The notes under the pieces were generated by a model that was not told the origin of the DNA, made no database searches, and saw only the letters and a program-made list of their open reading frames with translations. This document shows, piece by piece, positions 39,909 to 47,363 of a stretch of DNA of 64,000 nucleotides. Position 1 is the first letter of the stretch; each line of letters opens with the position of its first letter. The position numbers and the translations under genes were made by a program. Origin of the DNA: Rhodospirillales bacterium (GTDB lineage: Bacteria; Pseudomonadota; Alphaproteobacteria; Rhodospirillales; Defluviicoccaceae); contig REEP01000052.1 in assembly GCA_007695045.1 (NCBI GenBank), forward strand, positions 62,001 to 126,000, in the 5' to 3' direction.

Positions 39909-40642
39909 CGCGACCTCGTGCTGCGTACGCCCGGTGACGGGGAGCGTCGAGACCGTCGTGCCGACCGGGCCGCGGCCCGTCGAACGGAAACGACCTGAAG
40001 TCCGGGCCGGCGGAGCTGAACGCGCCGCCCTGACGTCAACAGCGTGGAACTGCGCTCCGGCAGAGCCGGCGTGCACGGGACCCGCCAAGCGTACTGGTTG
40101 TGGTCCGGTTGCTGTCGGACAGCCCTCCCGATCCTTTAAGCCGAAGCCCACGGAGTGCCGGCTTGGCGTGACAAGGTCCTGCGGGACCATACGCACGGGA
40201 ACGGGCGGTCCACCTGGGCGGCTTCAGCCGCTTACCATTGACCGATAGTGTCGTCAGCGAGGTTCTCGAACGCTCCGCATGCAAAGTACCCGTCCGCCTC
40301 CGAGACAGCAGGGTAAGGATGTTGTGACTGACATGCGAGGGAAAATCTTGTGTCAAACCCGGCAAAAGCCAGATTGGTCCGGACGGATGCCTGTAAGCAC
40401 GCCGCGGGTCTCAAACGGGGGTATCTGTTTCGGGGTCTTTGGGCCCGACATGGGCGAGCACCGGGCGGTCTCCGCGACGGTGGCGTGTGTGTGTAGGCGG
40501 CGTGTGCGTATCAAGCACCTTGCCGCGCAACTTTGTCGCGCTACCTTGCCGCGCTGGAGCAGCCGCATCACGCCGGCTATGATGCTTGCGCAACGACACC
40601 GGCGGACACGTCAAGGAGCCGTGCCGAGCGGAGGAGGCGACC
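39909..40642. other. Long divergent intergenic region (proV / sensor gene)
   Basis: About 730 bases between divergent operons. On the minus strand a perfect TTGACA is at 40351-40356, but no -10 fits at 16-18 bases. On the plus strand TATGAT at 40578-40583 is a good -10 for the downstream operon, without a clear -35. A run of GT dinucleotides lies near 40480-40510, and CCTTGCCGCGC occurs twice near 40518-40555. No credible gene or structured RNA was recognised. Osmotic control elements of proV probably lie here, unseen. Confidence 0.5.
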
Positions 40643-43075
40643 GTGAAGGCAACGGAACTCGTGGATCTCGGCACGGATCCGGCGGCGGCACGGCGCCTTC
40701 GGCGGAGGCGGTTGTTCGGGATCGTGTTGCCGGTTGCGGGGGCCGTGCTCGTCGTGGGCGCCCTGATCGCATTGATATTCCAATCCTACCTCAGTAACCG
40801 GCGCGACGCGCTGGATCTGTCGGAAGCGGTGCTGGACGGCCTTAACCATCGTATCGGGACCGAGGTCAGCCAGTTTCTGAGGCCGGCCGCCGCGGGCGTC
40901 TTCCTGGCCGCGGAACTGCTGCCCCGGGACGCCATCAGTGCGGGTCGGACGGAGACCGATCGGCTGGCGCTCCTGCTGCTGGGGCAGTATCGGCAACTGC
41001 TCAACTTCATCGTTGCCGAACCCAACGGCGATGTTCTGATCTATTACAAGCAGCCCGATGGGGCTGTGCATACCCGGGTGATCGAGCACACTGACAACGT
41101 CCGTCGAGCATACTGGATTCATCGCAATGTGGACGGCACCGTGACACAGACCGTGGATGACCCCGACGATCGCTATGACGTCACGACCCGCCCCTGGTTC
41201 CGGGGAGCCGTGGCCGCCGGCGGTCTCTCCTGGTCCGACATTTACATCTTCTTCGCCAGCCGACAGCCGGGCATCACGGTGGCCCTTCCGAGATACGCCG
41301 AGGACGGCTCGCTTCAGACCGTCTTCGGCATGGACTTGACGCTCGAAGACGTGAGCGCCTTCCTTGCGAGCCTGAACGTCGGTGCGCACGGCGAGGCCAT
41401 GATTGTCCAGGGCGAAGGGTTGCTGGTTGCCTTTCCCGACCCCTCGCGGATGCTCAAGGACAGCGCGGGACAGCCGGTTCCGGCCCGTCTGGACGATCTC
41501 GACGATCCGGTGCTCACGCGGGCGTTCAATCAGTTTCGGATCGACCGCTACGGGCGGCAGGAAATCGCGATCGACGGCCGCAACCACATCATGATGGTTT
41601 CGCCTTTGCAGGTTGGGGGTGTTGAAGACTGGTCGGTCCTGGTGGTGGTGGCTGAAGAGGATCTCATCGGTTTCGTTGCCCGGAATACGCGCCAGACGGC
41701 CATGATGTCGGCCGGTGTGGTGGCGCTGATGTTGTTCCTGGCAGCCGCCCTGGTGCGTCAAGGGCTTCGCGCCGACCGCAACGCCGGGTTCGTACGCCAG
41801 CGCCAGGAGACCCTGGAGCGGCAAAGCCAAGCCTTCGCCGAGATCGCCACGGCGGCCGGTGATTGGGAAGCTGGCGCCGGGCCGGCGGCGTCGCGGATCA
41901 CCGAGACCGTCGCCAATGCTGTTGGCGCGCGCCGCGTCGGCTTGTGGCGGTGGGTTGCCGAGGACGAGGCGCTGGTGCTGGTAGACAGCTACGACCGACA
42001 GTATCACGGTCATAATGCTGATACCGTACTCTCCCGGCGGCACCTTGGCGGCTTGCTTGATCCGCTGGAACAGGGGCGAAGCGTCGATGTTCCGGATGTG
42101 GCCCGCGACGGCCGAACCCGTGAGCTGGTCCGCCCGTATCTCGGCACGTTTGGCATCCGGTCACTCCTGGTAATCCCCATCGTAAACTCTGGCGATCTCG
42201 CGGGGGCTTTCTCGATCGAAGATCGTGCCGACGCTGGCAGCGGCATTGAAGGTGCCTCGGCGTTTACCGAGGCTGTTGCCGGCCTGCTGGCGCCCCGGTT
42301 GGGCGGTGCGCTGCGGTCCGTGCCGGCATTCGAAGGGCTCAAACTCACTGGCGCCACCGATGTTGGCGGCGCGCCCGGGGAGTCCGCCGTCTATGGCATG
42401 GCGGGGCCCGTCGCATCGCCCGAGGCGATGCGAGAGACCGCCCTGGTGCTGGACCGACGCAATTTCCGCACCGCGCAGCATGTCCAGAAGCAGGCGGACG
42501 ACCAGGGCGGCGACGTGCTGGCAATCCGCGACGTCACCGTGCTGGTTGCCCAGTTCGGCAGCGCCGCTGCACTGGCCCAGCGCCTGGACGAAGAGGCTGG
42601 ATTGACCGTGCTGCAACACCTGAGCCGGGTGGCGCAGGCGGAAGCGCAGCGCCTGAACGTTCCCTACCTGAAAGTGGCCGGGACCCGGCTGATCGCTGCC
42701 GGCTTCGGTGCCGCCGGCTCAGAAGGCGCCGATGGCGGTTCGGCTGGCAGTCTGGCCGATATCGCCCTGGCGCTGCGGGATGCCTGCGCAGAAGTGTCGA
42801 CAGCGGTGCCGCTGCCGCCGGACGACCGTTTCGCCATGGACACCGGCACCGCTTTCGGTGCGGACCTGGATACGGATGGCCAAGTGTTCAACCTGTGGGG
42901 TGGTCCGGTCCAACTGGCCGGCGACTTGGTAATGGCCGCAGCGCCCGGCTCAACCGTAGTCTCGCACGCAACCTTCGCGACGCTGCGAAATCTGTTCGTT
43001 TTCCGGGCGCGCGGGGCCTTTTACATCGAAGGTCTCGGTGAAACGCCGCTCTACGTGCTGTCGAGACGATCATGA
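40643..43075 (+). CDS. Membrane sensor: Cache + GAF + degenerate class III cyclase domain
   Basis: A protein of about 810 residues heading the MCE operon. GTG 40643 follows GAGGAGG by 5 bases. Order: a basic tail, TM1 (about 25-47), an extracytoplasmic dCache-like domain (about 50-345, with TRPWFRGAVAAGG and a late DWSVLVVVAEED), TM2 (about 353-375), a GAF domain (about 395-560), and a C-terminal domain resembling adenylate/guanylate cyclase (about 630-805; VFNLWGGPVQLAGDLVM and ARGAFYIEGLGETPLYVL match the family's late motifs). The first metal-binding aspartate block, normally like VTVLFADI, reads VTVLVAQF, so catalysis is doubtful. Its stop overlaps the MlaE-like gene. Family assignments are from motif inspection. 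Confidence 0.8.
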   Translation: MKATELVDLGTDPAAARRLRRRRLFGIVLPVAGAVLVVGALIALIFQSYLSNRRDALDLSEAVLDGLNHRIGTEVSQFLRPAAAGVFLAAELLPRDAISAGRTETDRLALLLLGQYRQLLNFIVAEPNGDVLIYYKQPDGAVHTRVIEHTDNVRRAYWIHRNVDGTVTQTVDDPDDRYDVTTRPWFRGAVAAGGLSWSDIYIFFASRQPGITVALPRYAEDGSLQTVFGMDLTLEDVSAFLASLNVGAHGEAMIVQGEGLLVAFPDPSRMLKDSAGQPVPARLDDLDDPVLTRAFNQFRIDRYGRQEIAIDGRNHIMMVSPLQVGGVEDWSVLVVVAEEDLIGFVARNTRQTAMMSAGVVALMLFLAAALVRQGLRADRNAGFVRQRQETLERQSQAFAEIATAAGDWEAGAGPAASRITETVANAVGARRVGLWRWVAEDEALVLVDSYDRQYHGHNADTVLSRRHLGGLLDPLEQGRSVDVPDVARDGRTRELVRPYLGTFGIRSLLVIPIVNSGDLAGAFSIEDRADAGSGIEGASAFTEAVAGLLAPRLGGALRSVPAFEGLKLTGATDVGGAPGESAVYGMAGPVASPEAMRETALVLDRRNFRTAQHVQKQADDQGGDVLAIRDVTVLVAQFGSAAALAQRLDEEAGLTVLQHLSRVAQAEAQRLNVPYLKVAGTRLIAAGFGAAGSEGADGGSAGSLADIALALRDACAEVSTAVPLPPDDRFAMDTGTAFGADLDTDGQVFNLWGGPVQLAGDLVMAAAPGSTVVSHATFATLRNLFVFRARGAFYIEGLGETPLYVLSRRS

Positions 43076-43926
43076 CGACCTCTGGAAGCGATGTTGGCGC
43101 GGCTCGGCGCTTGGCCGCAGACGACCGCCCCCGTAGTTTCAAGCACCGTGTTCTGGTCGGCCTCGGGGCGGCGGTGATCGCAGCAGGCCGATGGCTGGCC
43201 GCATTTGCCGGTATCGTCATCGGTGTCGTGGTGCAGGCCTGCCGCCCGCTGACATGGCGGCGCCCGGTTCGCCGCGAATTCATGCGAACCATGCTGCTTG
43301 CCGGGATCGGCAGTCTCGCCACCATCGTCGTTGTCGCCATTCTGGTTGGATTTGCCGCTGTGTTCCAGGCGCTGTACTGGGAAGGTGTCTTGGGCCAGCG
43401 TGATGAGGTGGGCCGCGTCGTCGTGCCGCTGATCGTGCGGGACATCGGCCCGTTGCTGGTGGGCTTGATCCTGATCGGTCGCTGCGGCTCGGCCATGCTT
43501 ATGGAACTTGCCGCGATCCGAGTGGGCGGGGCGTATCACATGCTGGATGCGCAAGGCGTCGATCCGTTTCTGACGCTGGTGGTGCCTCGGGTGTTGGGCC
43601 TTGCGCTGTCGTCCGTCTGCCTTGCGATCATCTTCGTGGCGGTAAGCCTGCTGTCCGGGTTCGTGCTGGCACGCGCCCTGGATGCCGTGGTGTTCACCCT
43701 GTGGCAGTTTCTCGACCGCACCTTGGGCCATCTCGTCGCGCGCGATGCGGCGGTATTACTGCTGAAGTCCGCCCTGATCGGCGGGGTCATCGGTATCGTC
43801 GCCACGATGGCGCCGCTGGCATCTGCAACGGCCGCACGCGACGTCAATGCCCTTGTGCCCAAGGGATTTGTTCAGTCCATCGTGGCCATGCTCCTGGTCT
43901 CCGGCATGGTGGGCGTCGTGTTCTGA
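43072..43926 (+). CDS. MlaE-family permease of an MCE transport system
   Basis: A 284-residue polytopic protein of the MlaE/YrbE family. A longer than usual N-terminal part (about 80 residues, containing one hydrophobic segment) comes before the core. The core shows the family pattern RCGSAMLMELAAIRVGG, then a shortened ID-type region and VVPRVLGLALSSV, ending with several membrane segments. MlaE forms the inner-membrane dimer that passes phospholipid to or from the MCE ring. ATGA overlap with the sensor gene and a 1-base gap to the next gene indicate one operon. Confidence 0.88.
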   Translation: MTTSGSDVGAARRLAADDRPRSFKHRVLVGLGAAVIAAGRWLAAFAGIVIGVVVQACRPLTWRRPVRREFMRTMLLAGIGSLATIVVVAILVGFAAVFQALYWEGVLGQRDEVGRVVVPLIVRDIGPLLVGLILIGRCGSAMLMELAAIRVGGAYHMLDAQGVDPFLTLVVPRVLGLALSSVCLAIIFVAVSLLSGFVLARALDAVVFTLWQFLDRTLGHLVARDAAVLLLKSALIGGVIGIVATMAPLASATAARDVNALVPKGFVQSIVAMLLVSGMVGVVF

Positions 43927-43927
43927 C

Positions 43928-44653
43928 ATGGATCAATCAGACGGGGATGCTTTCGGTGCACCTGAGGCGGCAACCCTGGTGCTGCACCAGGCGCGGATCG
44001 ACCTGGGGCAGCACGGGACCACAGCGCCCATCGATCTGAGCCTGGGCGCCGGCGATCTGGCGCTGGTGAACTGCACGGATGCCGACCTGGGTCTGGTCGT
44101 CGCGGACGCCTGTTCAGGGTTGGCCGATCTAAAGGACGGTTCGGTTCTGTTTCTGCGCTGGAACTGGGCACTGGCGCCGGCAGATGAGGCCAACGCATTG
44201 CGGGGGCGGATCGGCCGGCTGTTTCGGACCGAAGGGGCTTGGCTGCCGTACCTCAGCGTGCTGGACAACGTGCTGCTGCGGTCCGTCCACCATACCCGGC
44301 GGACGGAACGCGAGCTGGCGCGCGACGCGGCTGACCTTGCCCGCGGGTTCGGGTTGCCGGGTGTTCCGGCCGCGATACCCCAGGATCTGGATGGCGGCGA
44401 CCTTGTGCGCGCCGCCCTGGTTCGCGCTTTCCTTTCGTGGCCGTCGCTGGTCATTCTGGAGCAGCCGGCGCGCGGGCTGCCGCGGGACGTTCTGGCCGCA
44501 CTGGTCAACACCATCCGGGTTGCCCGGGACCGCGGCGGTGCGGTTCTGTGGTTCACCGCCGATCCCAAGCTGTGGCAGGATACCTCGCTCCCGGTGTCGG
44601 CGCGGTATCGGCTTGCTGGCGGTGCGTTGTCGCCCATCACGAGGACACCATGA
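43928..44653 (+). CDS. MlaF-like ABC protein with all ATP-handling motifs lost (pseudo-ATPase)
   Basis: A 241-residue protein aligning with ABC ATPases of the MlaF kind by motif order and by its place between MlaE- and MlaD-like genes. Where Walker A (GxSGSGKST) belongs it has NCTDADLGL (48-56), with no P-loop lysine. The Q-loop glutamine is arginine (LFRTEG, about 100). The signature is LDGGD (154-158). Walker B is VILEQP (175-180), so Asp becomes Glu and the catalytic Glu becomes Gln. The switch histidine is alanine (WFTADP, about 211). The scaffold is otherwise full length and in frame, so it is not a decayed gene but a probable non-hydrolysing structural or regulatory subunit. ATG 43928 is 1 base after the MlaE stop; its end overlaps the MCE gene (ATGA). 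Confidence 0.82.
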   Translation: MDQSDGDAFGAPEAATLVLHQARIDLGQHGTTAPIDLSLGAGDLALVNCTDADLGLVVADACSGLADLKDGSVLFLRWNWALAPADEANALRGRIGRLFRTEGAWLPYLSVLDNVLLRSVHHTRRTERELARDAADLARGFGLPGVPAAIPQDLDGGDLVRAALVRAFLSWPSLVILEQPARGLPRDVLAALVNTIRVARDRGGAVLWFTADPKLWQDTSLPVSARYRLAGGALSPITRTP

Positions 44654-45684
44654 CGGTTTCGGCCTCACGCTTTCGCTACGCCAATGAGGCGGTCGGCGCC
44701 CTGGTCCTGGTGGCGGCGCTGGTGCTGATCGGCGCCGCGTTGCAGGCCGGGGTTCTGCGCGCCTGGCTTCAACCCGGTGTCACGCTCAGGGTTATTCTGC
44801 CAGAGGAGGGCTCGTTGGGCTTGTCTCGGGGCGCTGCGGTGGAAATTCTCGGCACCCAGGCCGGGGAGGTGCAACGCGTCGTCATCTCACCCGACGACAC
44901 TCTGTATGCCGAGGTTGCCCTGGACGAGAGCATGTCGGTCTTCGTCCGTACCGACTCCCGGGCCATCATCCGCAAGCAGTTCGGCATCGCCGGTGCTGCC
45001 TATCTGGACATCATCCGCGGCACCGGCGCGCCACTCGACTGGGGCTATGCCGTGATCCACGCCGAAGCCGATCGCGCCGCCACCGATACGGTGAGCGAAC
45101 TGATCAAGGAGGTGCAGGACATGATCCGGCCCATTCTTGAGGATGTGCAGCGGACGGCGAACGCGGCCGCAGCCTTTGCCGAACGCTTGCAGGATCCGGA
45201 TAGCAGCCTGCAACGCACGCTTGCCAATGTCGCGGCGGCGACCGACGGCATCGCCGAGGGCGAGGGGCTGGTCGGTCGGCTGCTCAGCGACAAGGCCATG
45301 GCCGCTCGGCTGGAACGGAGCCTTGACGATGTGGGCGCCATCCTGACCGATGTTCGCTCGGTGACCGCCGAGATGCGCGGAAGCGCCGAAGACGTTCGCG
45401 CCGAGCTCCGCCGCCTGCCCGAGATGCTGGCGCGTGCCGATGCCATCCTGGCTTCCGCGCAGGCGGTGATGCGGGATATGGAACGCACCAGCCCGGAGGC
45501 GCCGGGCATCGCCCGGGACGTGCGGGCGTCCACTACTGCGTTGCCGGCGCTACTGGTTCAGACGCAGCAGACCACCTACGAACTGGAGCGTCTGCTGGCC
45601 CAACTGCGCCGATCCTGGCTGTTCGGCGGCGGTTCCGGCGATGGCGACGCGACGCGACTTCCGGCATCCGAGGTGCGGCCGTGA
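44650..45684 (+). CDS. MCE-domain (MlaD-like) lipid-binding protein
   Basis: A 344-residue protein with one N-terminal transmembrane helix (about residues 14-36) and an MCE domain (about 42-125). The family pattern is LGLSRGAAVEILGTQAGEV, and the loop IRKQFGIAGAAYLDI is a known MlaD-like feature. A long alpha-helical C-terminal region (about 130-325) is rich in Ala, Arg, Asp and Glu, as in MCE proteins that form a tube or needle across the periplasm. It would form a hexameric ring carrying lipids between membranes. It overlaps both neighbours (ATGA and GTGA). Confidence 0.9.
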   Translation: MTVSASRFRYANEAVGALVLVAALVLIGAALQAGVLRAWLQPGVTLRVILPEEGSLGLSRGAAVEILGTQAGEVQRVVISPDDTLYAEVALDESMSVFVRTDSRAIIRKQFGIAGAAYLDIIRGTGAPLDWGYAVIHAEADRAATDTVSELIKEVQDMIRPILEDVQRTANAAAAFAERLQDPDSSLQRTLANVAAATDGIAEGEGLVGRLLSDKAMAARLERSLDDVGAILTDVRSVTAEMRGSAEDVRAELRRLPEMLARADAILASAQAVMRDMERTSPEAPGIARDVRASTTALPALLVQTQQTTYELERLLAQLRRSWLFGGGSGDGDATRLPASEVRP

Positions 45685-46574
45685 CATTGTGCCGGTTCTG
45701 GATCGCGGCAGCATTGCTGCCGGTCGCGGCATGTGGTGGGGCGCAGGAGCCGGAGCCGCCCGACTTGGCCCTGACCCGTTCCCAACGCGTCGCGATAGCG
45801 GCATTCCAGCAGGGGCAGCTCGATCAGGCGGCACACCTCTCCGAGGCGGCTCTGGTTCACGCCCACGCCCGGGACGATGCCCAGGCAATCTCTGACATCG
45901 GCTACAACCTGGCGGTGATCGCGTTGCGCCGCGGCCGCCCCGAAACGGCCCTTGCGGCCGCCCGGGCGGCTCGTGGTGATGCGGAACGTCGGGGTGTCAA
46001 GGTGCTGCCGGAACTCAAACTGGTGGAGGCGGCTGCCTTGTACCGGTTGGGGCGGCTGGCCGAAGCCGCTGCCGTGGCGGAAGCCCTGGTGACGACGGAT
46101 GCCGACGCGTCGACGACAGATCGAGCCCTGTTCATCCGGGGCTTGGTGGCGGCTGACTCGGGCGACGCGGCGGGGCTTGTTGCGGCTTTAGCGTCTTTGG
46201 CGGAACGTGCCGCGGAGATGCCGGTGGCTGACCTGGAGGAACTGCGCGCACGTCGGGCAGACTTGGCCGGCGATGCCGCGGCGGCACGTGCGGCTGCTTT
46301 GGTCGCGGCCGCCCTGCGACGTGATGAACTGGACTACGCCGGCATGGCCCGCGCCCTGGCCATGGCCGCGGCAGCGGCAGAGGCCTTGGGCAACGACGCG
46401 GAGGCCGCTCACCTGTATCTCCGCGCCGGCCGCAGCGCGGCGGCGCAATCGGCGTCTGCGGATGCGGCGCGCTGGTTGGAGGCGGCGATCCGTTCGGCCG
46501 GGACGGCCGGCCAAGCGGAGCTTGCGGCCGAGGCCAAGCGGGATCGCGCAGCGCTCGATAACACCTCTTTGTAA
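45681..46574 (+). CDS. Putative TPR-like lipoprotein of the MCE operon
   Basis: A 297-residue protein with a lipoprotein signal ending in VAACGG (cysteine near residue 18). Alanine-rich helical repeats follow with TPR character (ALTRSQRVAIAAFQQGQLDQ, then IGYNLAVIALRRGRPETAL). It has no recognised catalytic motif. GTG 45681 overlaps the MCE gene stop. It takes the place of the ABC-type lipoprotein (MlaB/LetB-associated or PqiC-like) often found last in MCE operons, but is not obviously PqiC. Probable outer-membrane or periplasmic partner. Confidence 0.75.
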   Translation: MTLCRFWIAAALLPVAACGGAQEPEPPDLALTRSQRVAIAAFQQGQLDQAAHLSEAALVHAHARDDAQAISDIGYNLAVIALRRGRPETALAAARAARGDAERRGVKVLPELKLVEAAALYRLGRLAEAAAVAEALVTTDADASTTDRALFIRGLVAADSGDAAGLVAALASLAERAAEMPVADLEELRARRADLAGDAAAARAAALVAAALRRDELDYAGMARALAMAAAAAEALGNDAEAAHLYLRAGRSAAAQSASADAARWLEAAIRSAGTAGQAELAAEAKRDRAALDNTSL

Positions 46575-46688: not shown

Positions 46689-47363
46689 ATGCTTGTCGAT
46701 CTCCGCATTGGCCAACTTTTGTGTTCCCGTCTATGCCACGACCTCGCCGGCCCCATCGGTGCCGTCAATGCCGGCACCGAACTGGCACAAGAAGAAGGGG
46801 CGGTCGACGATGAATGCCGAGCCTTGATCGCGAGCAGTGGGCATCGCCTCGCAAGGCAGCTGGCATTCTATCGGATGGCGTTCGGTCTTCAGGGCGGGAC
46901 TGAGGCCGGGGTGGCGCTGGCGGAAGTGCGGGCGCTTGCGAAAGGGTTGTTCGATCTGGGATCCACCACCTTGGACTGGCCGGACGCACAGGAAGAGGCC
47001 GGTGTCGATCTCGAGGTCGCGCGCCCTGCCGGTGCCGCGCGTCTCCTGCTATGTTTGCTTCTTGTGGGGGCCGATGCGATTGGACGGGGCGGTCTCTTGC
47101 GGGTCGCCTTGTCGGAACGGGGCGGCGGGTTGCACATCGCATTGGCGGCCCGCGGTCGCGCTGCCGCCCTGCCGACGGACGTACGGCTGGCACTTCGGTC
47201 GGACACCGTGCCGGATCGTCTGACGGCGCGCACCATCCACGCCTACTTGGCCGCACGGTTGGCCGACGACGCAGGCGCGCAGCTCCGCGTGGACGGTGAC
47301 CGCCTCGACCAGGTGCGCCTGGATGTGTGCCTGCCGGCAGCAACCGGTGCCCCGGCCTCGTGA
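46689..47363 (+). CDS. chpT: Histidine phosphotransferase ChpT-like protein
   Basis: A 224-residue protein whose N-terminus contains LCSRLCHDLAGPIGAVNAG, matching the phospho-accepting helix of alphaproteobacterial ChpT (histidine in CHDL, about residue 17). The rest resembles a degenerate HATPase fold without nucleotide motifs, as in ChpT. ChpT passes phosphate from CckA to CtrA and CpdR to control the cell cycle. It lies alone, about 115 bases after the lipoprotein gene and 88 before lipA. Function is inferred from the family. Confidence 0.82.
   Translation: MLVDLRIGQLLCSRLCHDLAGPIGAVNAGTELAQEEGAVDDECRALIASSGHRLARQLAFYRMAFGLQGGTEAGVALAEVRALAKGLFDLGSTTLDWPDAQEEAGVDLEVARPAGAARLLLCLLLVGADAIGRGGLLRVALSERGGGLHIALAARGRAAALPTDVRLALRSDTVPDRLTARTIHAYLAARLADDAGAQLRVDGDRLDQVRLDVCLPAATGAPAS

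Follow-up and report, generated by a model that had tools for sequence, protein, structure and literature searches.

The gene cluster analyzed here codes for an MCE system in which the position of the MlaF ATPase is taken by a protein with the complete fold of an ABC nucleotide-binding domain (NBD) and none of its usual nucleotide motifs. The loss of these motifs in the protein, termed pseudo-MlaF, is well supported. The cluster lies in a stretch of 64,000 nucleotides (the window) from a Rhodospirillales bacterium of the Defluviicoccaceae. By its MlaE permease and its MCE domain the operon is that of an MCE transporter, yet by its motifs it codes for no MlaF ATPase. Its genes are:

40643..43075, forward strand: membrane sensor, 810 residues from the GTG codon at 40643 (a longer ORF begins at 40586)
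43072..43926, forward strand: MlaE-type permease of a separate clade (PF02405, E 2.5e-31, 109 bits for a cut-off of 22.5)
43928..44653, forward strand: pseudo-MlaF, an ABC nucleotide-binding-domain fold without nucleotide motifs
44650..45684, forward strand: MlaD-type MCE protein with a single MCE domain (PF02470, E 4.8e-10, 40 bits for a cut-off of 25.1)
45681..46574, forward strand: TPR lipoprotein (TPR matches below the Pfam cut-offs, lipobox LLPVAAC-GG), found at the same place in other loci

Pseudo-mlaF is an intact ORF coding for 241 residues, with mlaE upstream and mlaD downstream as identified with Pfam. These two neighbors and the full ABC fold of the product bear out the proposal of an earlier note on this DNA that an ABC-type protein is encoded between MlaE- and MlaD-like genes. 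The same note held that the frame is intact and overlaps its neighbors. This is correct for the frame and for mlaD (overlap of 4 nt), but not for mlaE, from which pseudo-mlaF is separated by a gap of 1 nt (TGA-c-ATG). Overlaps of 4 nt are also found between the sensor gene and mlaE and between mlaD and the TPR lipoprotein gene. The motif positions of pseudo-MlaF, compared with the canonical MlaF, are occupied as follows:

44069..44095, forward strand: Walker A position, NCTDADLGL (residues 48-56), aligned with GGSGTGKS in the canonical MlaF of the same genome
44225..44227, forward strand: position of the Q-loop Gln, Arg (R100)
44387..44401, forward strand: ABC signature position, LDGGD (residues 154-158), whose last residue is Met in canonical MlaF
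44459..44467, forward strand: end of Walker B, EQP (residues 178-180), DEP in canonical MlaF
44558..44560, forward strand: position of the H-loop His, Ala (A211)

In the window all motifs are altered exactly as the earlier note quoted them. The picture across the family rests on 41 distinct pseudo-MlaF proteins, aligned and compared with 19 canonical MlaF-type proteins, and differs in one respect: the Q-loop Gln is the sole motif residue that is not uniformly lost, being kept in 14 of the 41 proteins and present in the same-genus orthologue. The Walker A Lys and the H-loop His are found in none. The Walker B Asp is present in a single protein and replaced by Glu in 39, the catalytic Glu is retained in five, and the first and second Gly of the signature persist in three and eight proteins, respectively. 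The last signature residue is Asp in all 41. None of the 41 matches the Walker A pattern GxxGxGK[ST], and the suspicion that a usual Walker A might lie at another position is answered by a regular-expression search over the full proteins, which found no P-loop anywhere (0/41). In the 47% identical orthologue from the same family the Walker A position reads LVDTADLQHAAL, less recognizable still than that of the window, and the signature is absent. Averaged over the motif columns, conservation in pseudo-MlaF is 0.55 versus 0.57 in the other columns, whereas the corresponding values for canonical MlaF are 0.86 and 0.59. Judging from these sequences, pseudo-MlaF cannot perform the usual binding or hydrolysis of ATP. 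Because the motifs are lost, the transporter cannot be powered by hydrolysis in its own MlaF-like subunit, in agreement with the earlier note.

N114, R161, R166 and P172 are among the columns whose conservation is shared by pseudo-MlaF and MlaF. In addition, pseudo-MlaF has near-invariant residues of its own (W80, R92, H122, P144, P147, D158), which MlaF has rarely or not at all. Its score with the Pfam ABC_tran model PF00005 is 16.4 bits (cut-off 25) and that with the NCBIfam MlaF model NF008809 is 26 bits (cut-off 441, a value also unreached by the canonical MlaF of operon-bearing genomes). Proteins of this type may have been overlooked because they score below both cut-offs. The AlphaFold2 model computed from the 41-row alignment (pLDDT 92.6, pTM 0.89) displays a complete ABC nucleotide-binding-domain fold. 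The structural matches found with Foldseek and VIA-align are ABC nucleotide-binding domains, headed by LolD, FtsE and others (Z about 25-26), while E. coli MlaF (6xgz) aligns over 226 residues with Z 23.9 and rmsd 2.7. The fold thus identifies an ABC NBD; the assignment as the counterpart of MlaF rests on the gene position and on the accompanying MlaE and MlaD.

The dN/dS ratio between the window and the same-genus orthologue is 0.209 for pseudo-mlaF, 0.200 for mlaE, 0.170 for mlaD, 0.221 for the sensor gene and 0.266 for the TPR lipoprotein gene (0.054 for lipA, a housekeeping comparison). Purifying selection on pseudo-mlaF is the same as on its partner genes. A pair of frameshifts is rejected because 41 homologues carry the same losses, and these homologues, the dN/dS of 0.21 and the confident fold together also rule out sequencing error and decay, in agreement with the view that the gene is selected. 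The fragmentation of the source assembly (138 contigs) would speak for a pseudogene or an assembly error, but against the same three lines of evidence this explanation is practically negligible.

Gene-by-gene reading covered 42 of the 48 operon-bearing genomes sampled, the window included. The order sensor-MlaE-pseudo-MlaF-MlaD on a single strand is found in the window and in the 41 other genomes examined, and the TPR lipoprotein gene comes after mlaD wherever the flank was read. A sixth conserved gene was looked for, and no flanking gene was common to different families. The constant order and the lack of such a shared flanking gene define a unit of five genes. Note that at loci L140 and L149 the match to the sensor is partial and ends early relative to mlaE, its C-terminal domain being perhaps diverged or broken. 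The operon MlaE retains the coupling-helix region, which ends GVDPFLTLVVPR. MlaD, whose length is 310-344 residues, has a long C-terminal region and a tail conserved in the family (RLPASEVRP, encoded at 45655-45681 in the window); a related C-terminal tail was present in the eight MlaD proteins read (8/8). The lipobox was likewise found in 8/8 TPR lipoproteins read, and the protein is probably anchored in the outer membrane. TPR proteins can bind C-terminal peptides, and from this parallel we would guess that the lipoprotein contacts the MlaD tail.

The sensor features an N-terminal transmembrane helix, a dCache periplasmic domain, a second transmembrane helix, a GAF domain and a degenerate class III cyclase-like domain. 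Its Pfam matches are dCache_1 (1.5e-17), GAF (1.8e-10) and Guanylate_cyc (PF00211, 2.3e-4, just below the cut-off), and the transmembrane helices were taken from helices of the AlphaFold model together with hydrophobic stretches, not from a transmembrane prediction program. The model has a mean pLDDT of 73.9, with higher values for the dCache and GAF domains. A phmmer search with the sensor homologue L105 reached adenylate cyclase chains of the PDB at 5e-7. In the homologues aligned, where the genus was represented by the same-genus orthologue L064 and by the window protein itself, the first metal Asp and the transition-state Asn and Arg of the cyclase-like domain are replaced; the second metal Asp is kept in L065 (G009) and L143 alone. 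Synthesis of cAMP or cGMP by the sensor is therefore unlikely, and the operon codes for two pseudoenzymes, since the cyclase-like domain is also devoid of its catalytic residues. Neither Pfam nor the cyclase alignment recognized an active effector domain in the sensor. Homologues of the sensor are encoded upstream of mlaE in every family and locus examined.

Conservation of the operon in relatives was established at several taxonomic levels. Among 100 related genomes, pseudo-MlaF orthologues with 86% identity (same genus) and 47% identity (same family) exceed by far the level reached by ordinary ABC proteins, and the neighbors of both orthologues (sensor, MlaE, MlaD and TPR lipoprotein) match too. 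The own family of the window, represented by 11 genomes, has three that bear the operon. Within the order, these three alone score as members of the clade (1e-139 or better, the next best score being 4e-23). A class-wide search with the sensor located this operon in three further families, for which a profile of eight MlaE members gave counts of 36/120, 5/17 and 3/39 genomes. A phylum-wide draw of 398 genomes added one operon carrier; every match was within the class of the window and no operon was found outside the Alphaproteobacteria in this sample. The sampled total is 48 operon-bearing genomes from four alphaproteobacterial families. Presence is patchy within the families of G342, G353 and G667 (the three counts above), a pattern indicative of frequent loss or horizontal transfer. 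Searches of contigs retrieved the same-genus metagenome-assembled genome Rhodospirillales bacterium PLM2.Bin51, the second, weak match (27% over 83 residues) being an Oscillospiraceae metagenome-assembled genome. A search of plasmids with the sensor of one member matched Paracoccus cache-domain proteins only.

Quick trees, some of whose branches are long, were built for MlaE and for pseudo-MlaF. Of the 99 MlaE proteins in the first tree, the 42 encoded by the operon are separated from 57 canonical ones by a branch with SH-aLRT 100, and the same support separates 25 pseudo-MlaF from 42 other ABC proteins. The two clades fit one ancient loss followed by divergence of the whole system.

The operon was compared with known systems. 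It shares with Mla of E. coli and Acinetobacter (MlaFEDB) the MlaE permease, a subunit of MlaF fold, an MlaD with one MCE domain and the organization in a single operon. It differs from Mla in that the MlaF position is held by a pseudo-ATPase whose C-terminus is shorter than that of MlaF, MlaB (STAS) and MlaC are not encoded in the operon, MlaD is long, and the operon also encodes a sensor and a TPR lipoprotein. An NBD with degenerate motifs under selection is also found in heterodimeric ABC transporters with one degenerate site. These keep one working site per dimer, whereas pseudo-MlaF has lost Walker A and the operon has no gene for an active partner NBD. The regulation of MlaF by MlaB offers a parallel in that the MlaFE core is controlled from its cytoplasmic side, a role for which the GAF/pseudo-cyclase part of the sensor would be the candidate here in place of a STAS protein. 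A precedent for the layout is Mpc from Brucella abortus (MpcEFDA), where the order MlaE-F-long D-lipoprotein is known (PMC12436622). The two systems have in common MlaE-F, a long needle-like MlaD and an outer-membrane lipoprotein, the needle and the outer-membrane location being predicted features here; the long MlaD and the lipoprotein are present as in an Mpc-like bridge. However, MpcF is described as an MlaF-homologous ABC ATPase and MpcE carries a STAS domain (PMC12436622), while here the ATPase is dead and no STAS domain is seen, and the lipoprotein is a TPR protein rather than PqiC-like. PqiABC and LetAB are MCE lipid bridges, as is predicted here, whose inner-membrane part has no ATPase domain (PMC10897342, PMC12436622). 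They use a different membrane protein, PqiA/LetA, whereas MlaE and the ABC fold are kept here. Searches of open-access papers retrieved no description of an MCE system that has a conserved pseudo-ATPase, in line with the impression voiced earlier that a system of this kind is undescribed.

The best explanation of the operon, which we hold to have an even chance of being correct, is an MCE lipid conduit that spans the periplasm and is gated by the sensor via an MlaF scaffold without hydrolysis. If the assembly resembles MlaF2E2D6, two copies each of MlaE and pseudo-MlaF would lie in the inner membrane with an MlaD hexamer, whose long C-terminal region would bridge the periplasm. The outer-membrane TPR lipoprotein may bind the conserved MlaD tail. 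Pseudo-MlaF would dock on the MlaE coupling helix via a face that appears partly kept in its sequence, acting both as scaffold and as allosteric switch. On detecting a ligand in the periplasm the sensor would adjust the gate through protein contact, in the position that MlaB has in Mla, and lipid would flow down its gradient without ATP hydrolysis by the system itself. We infer the assembly, docking, gating, passive transport, contact between the TPR lipoprotein and the tail, and substrate. The idea of a ligand-gated, ATP-independent lipid channel made from ABC parts, where control by a transmembrane sensor replaces hydrolysis through two pseudoenzymes, falls somewhat short of an even chance.

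Precedents exist both for and against the sensor-gated, hydrolysis-free bridge. The Walker A Lys mutant K55L of MlaF is dominant negative in Acinetobacter Mla (PMC6365058). This implies that MlaE-type transport normally depends on hydrolysis, which counts against the explanation; in a lineage where a dead MlaF is fixed the working of the core must therefore have changed. PqiA and LetA show that MCE systems without an ATPase domain exist; for PqiA, the suggested modes are passive action, an ATPase yet to be identified, and use of the proton motive force (PMC10897342; PMC12436622). In MlaFEDB the MlaE coupling helix is the contact of MlaF, and MlaB regulates MlaF (PMC7790496). The earlier note had proposed that the sensor might drive transport. 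Its gene is part of the unit in every family, but as the cyclase-like domain has no catalytic residues the sensor would serve as a gate or docking partner rather than as an energy source.

Hydrolysis could alternatively be provided in trans, by a canonical MlaF that joins the operon MlaE alone or together with a regulatory pseudo-MlaF. Each of the 22 operon-bearing genomes checked has one to three further (canonical) MlaE genes. MlaF-type matches at E <= 1e-45 were found in 20 of them, most adjoining a canonical MlaE, with the MlaF of the window genome as query (a cut-off of E <= 1e-60 with the MlaF model from E. coli proved too strict); the other two have an MlaF-type protein at the canonical MlaE locus, of which only the P-loop was read. 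In the window genome itself, locus L063 (G000:C26:2500-11000) codes for canonical MlaE and MlaF with GGSGTGKS and LSGGM intact, which settles positively whether an intact MlaF exists elsewhere in the genome. An ATPase in trans is thus conceivable, and mycobacterial MceG serves several Mce systems in this way. Yet the canonical MlaF adjoins its own MlaE, the operon MlaE forms a separate clade, and the working subunit would face competition from a conserved pseudo-MlaF. A mixed dimer would also have no complete site: a site combines Walker A and B of one NBD with the signature of the other, and pseudo-MlaF offers neither a P-loop nor a usual signature. We consider this alternative rather unlikely.

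It is slightly less likely still that MlaE, pseudo-MlaF and MlaD mainly form a receptor complex, which would monitor envelope lipids and pass a signal on via the GAF/pseudo-cyclase protein without net transport. The presence of two pseudoenzymes and a dCache receptor within one conserved operon would agree with such a role, and ABC-type complexes are used for signaling or transmission in BceAB-BceS and FtsEX. However, the MCE domain, long C-terminal region and conserved tail of MlaD, as well as the conserved lipoprotein, fit a bridge, and a signaling output is at odds with a sensor that has no recognized active effector domain. The new near-invariant residues of pseudo-MlaF might instead denote binding of another ligand, or of ATP in an unusual manner, with new catalysis or allostery. 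They are scattered over the fold and explicable by folding or docking, and a substitute phosphate-binding loop was not recognized in pseudo-MlaF, so that this reading is very improbable.

The energy source of MCE systems and the direction in which they carry lipids have long been open questions. A natural MlaE combined with an MlaF fold minus its ATP chemistry provides a test case for an ABC core without hydrolysis and for passive MCE bridges. That the system is tied to a receptor of its own suggests signal control of lipid flow across the envelope in operon-bearing bacteria. The carrier family with 36/120 positive genomes appears to be that of the acetic acid bacteria, which are cultivable and genetically tractable and would make the question directly testable.

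Downstream of the operon in the window, the gene at 46689-47363 codes for a product that by eye resembles a histidine phosphotransferase (ChpT-like). The gene is conserved in the same genus (70% identity), but no match to it was found next to the operon of L065, the other member of the family that was read.
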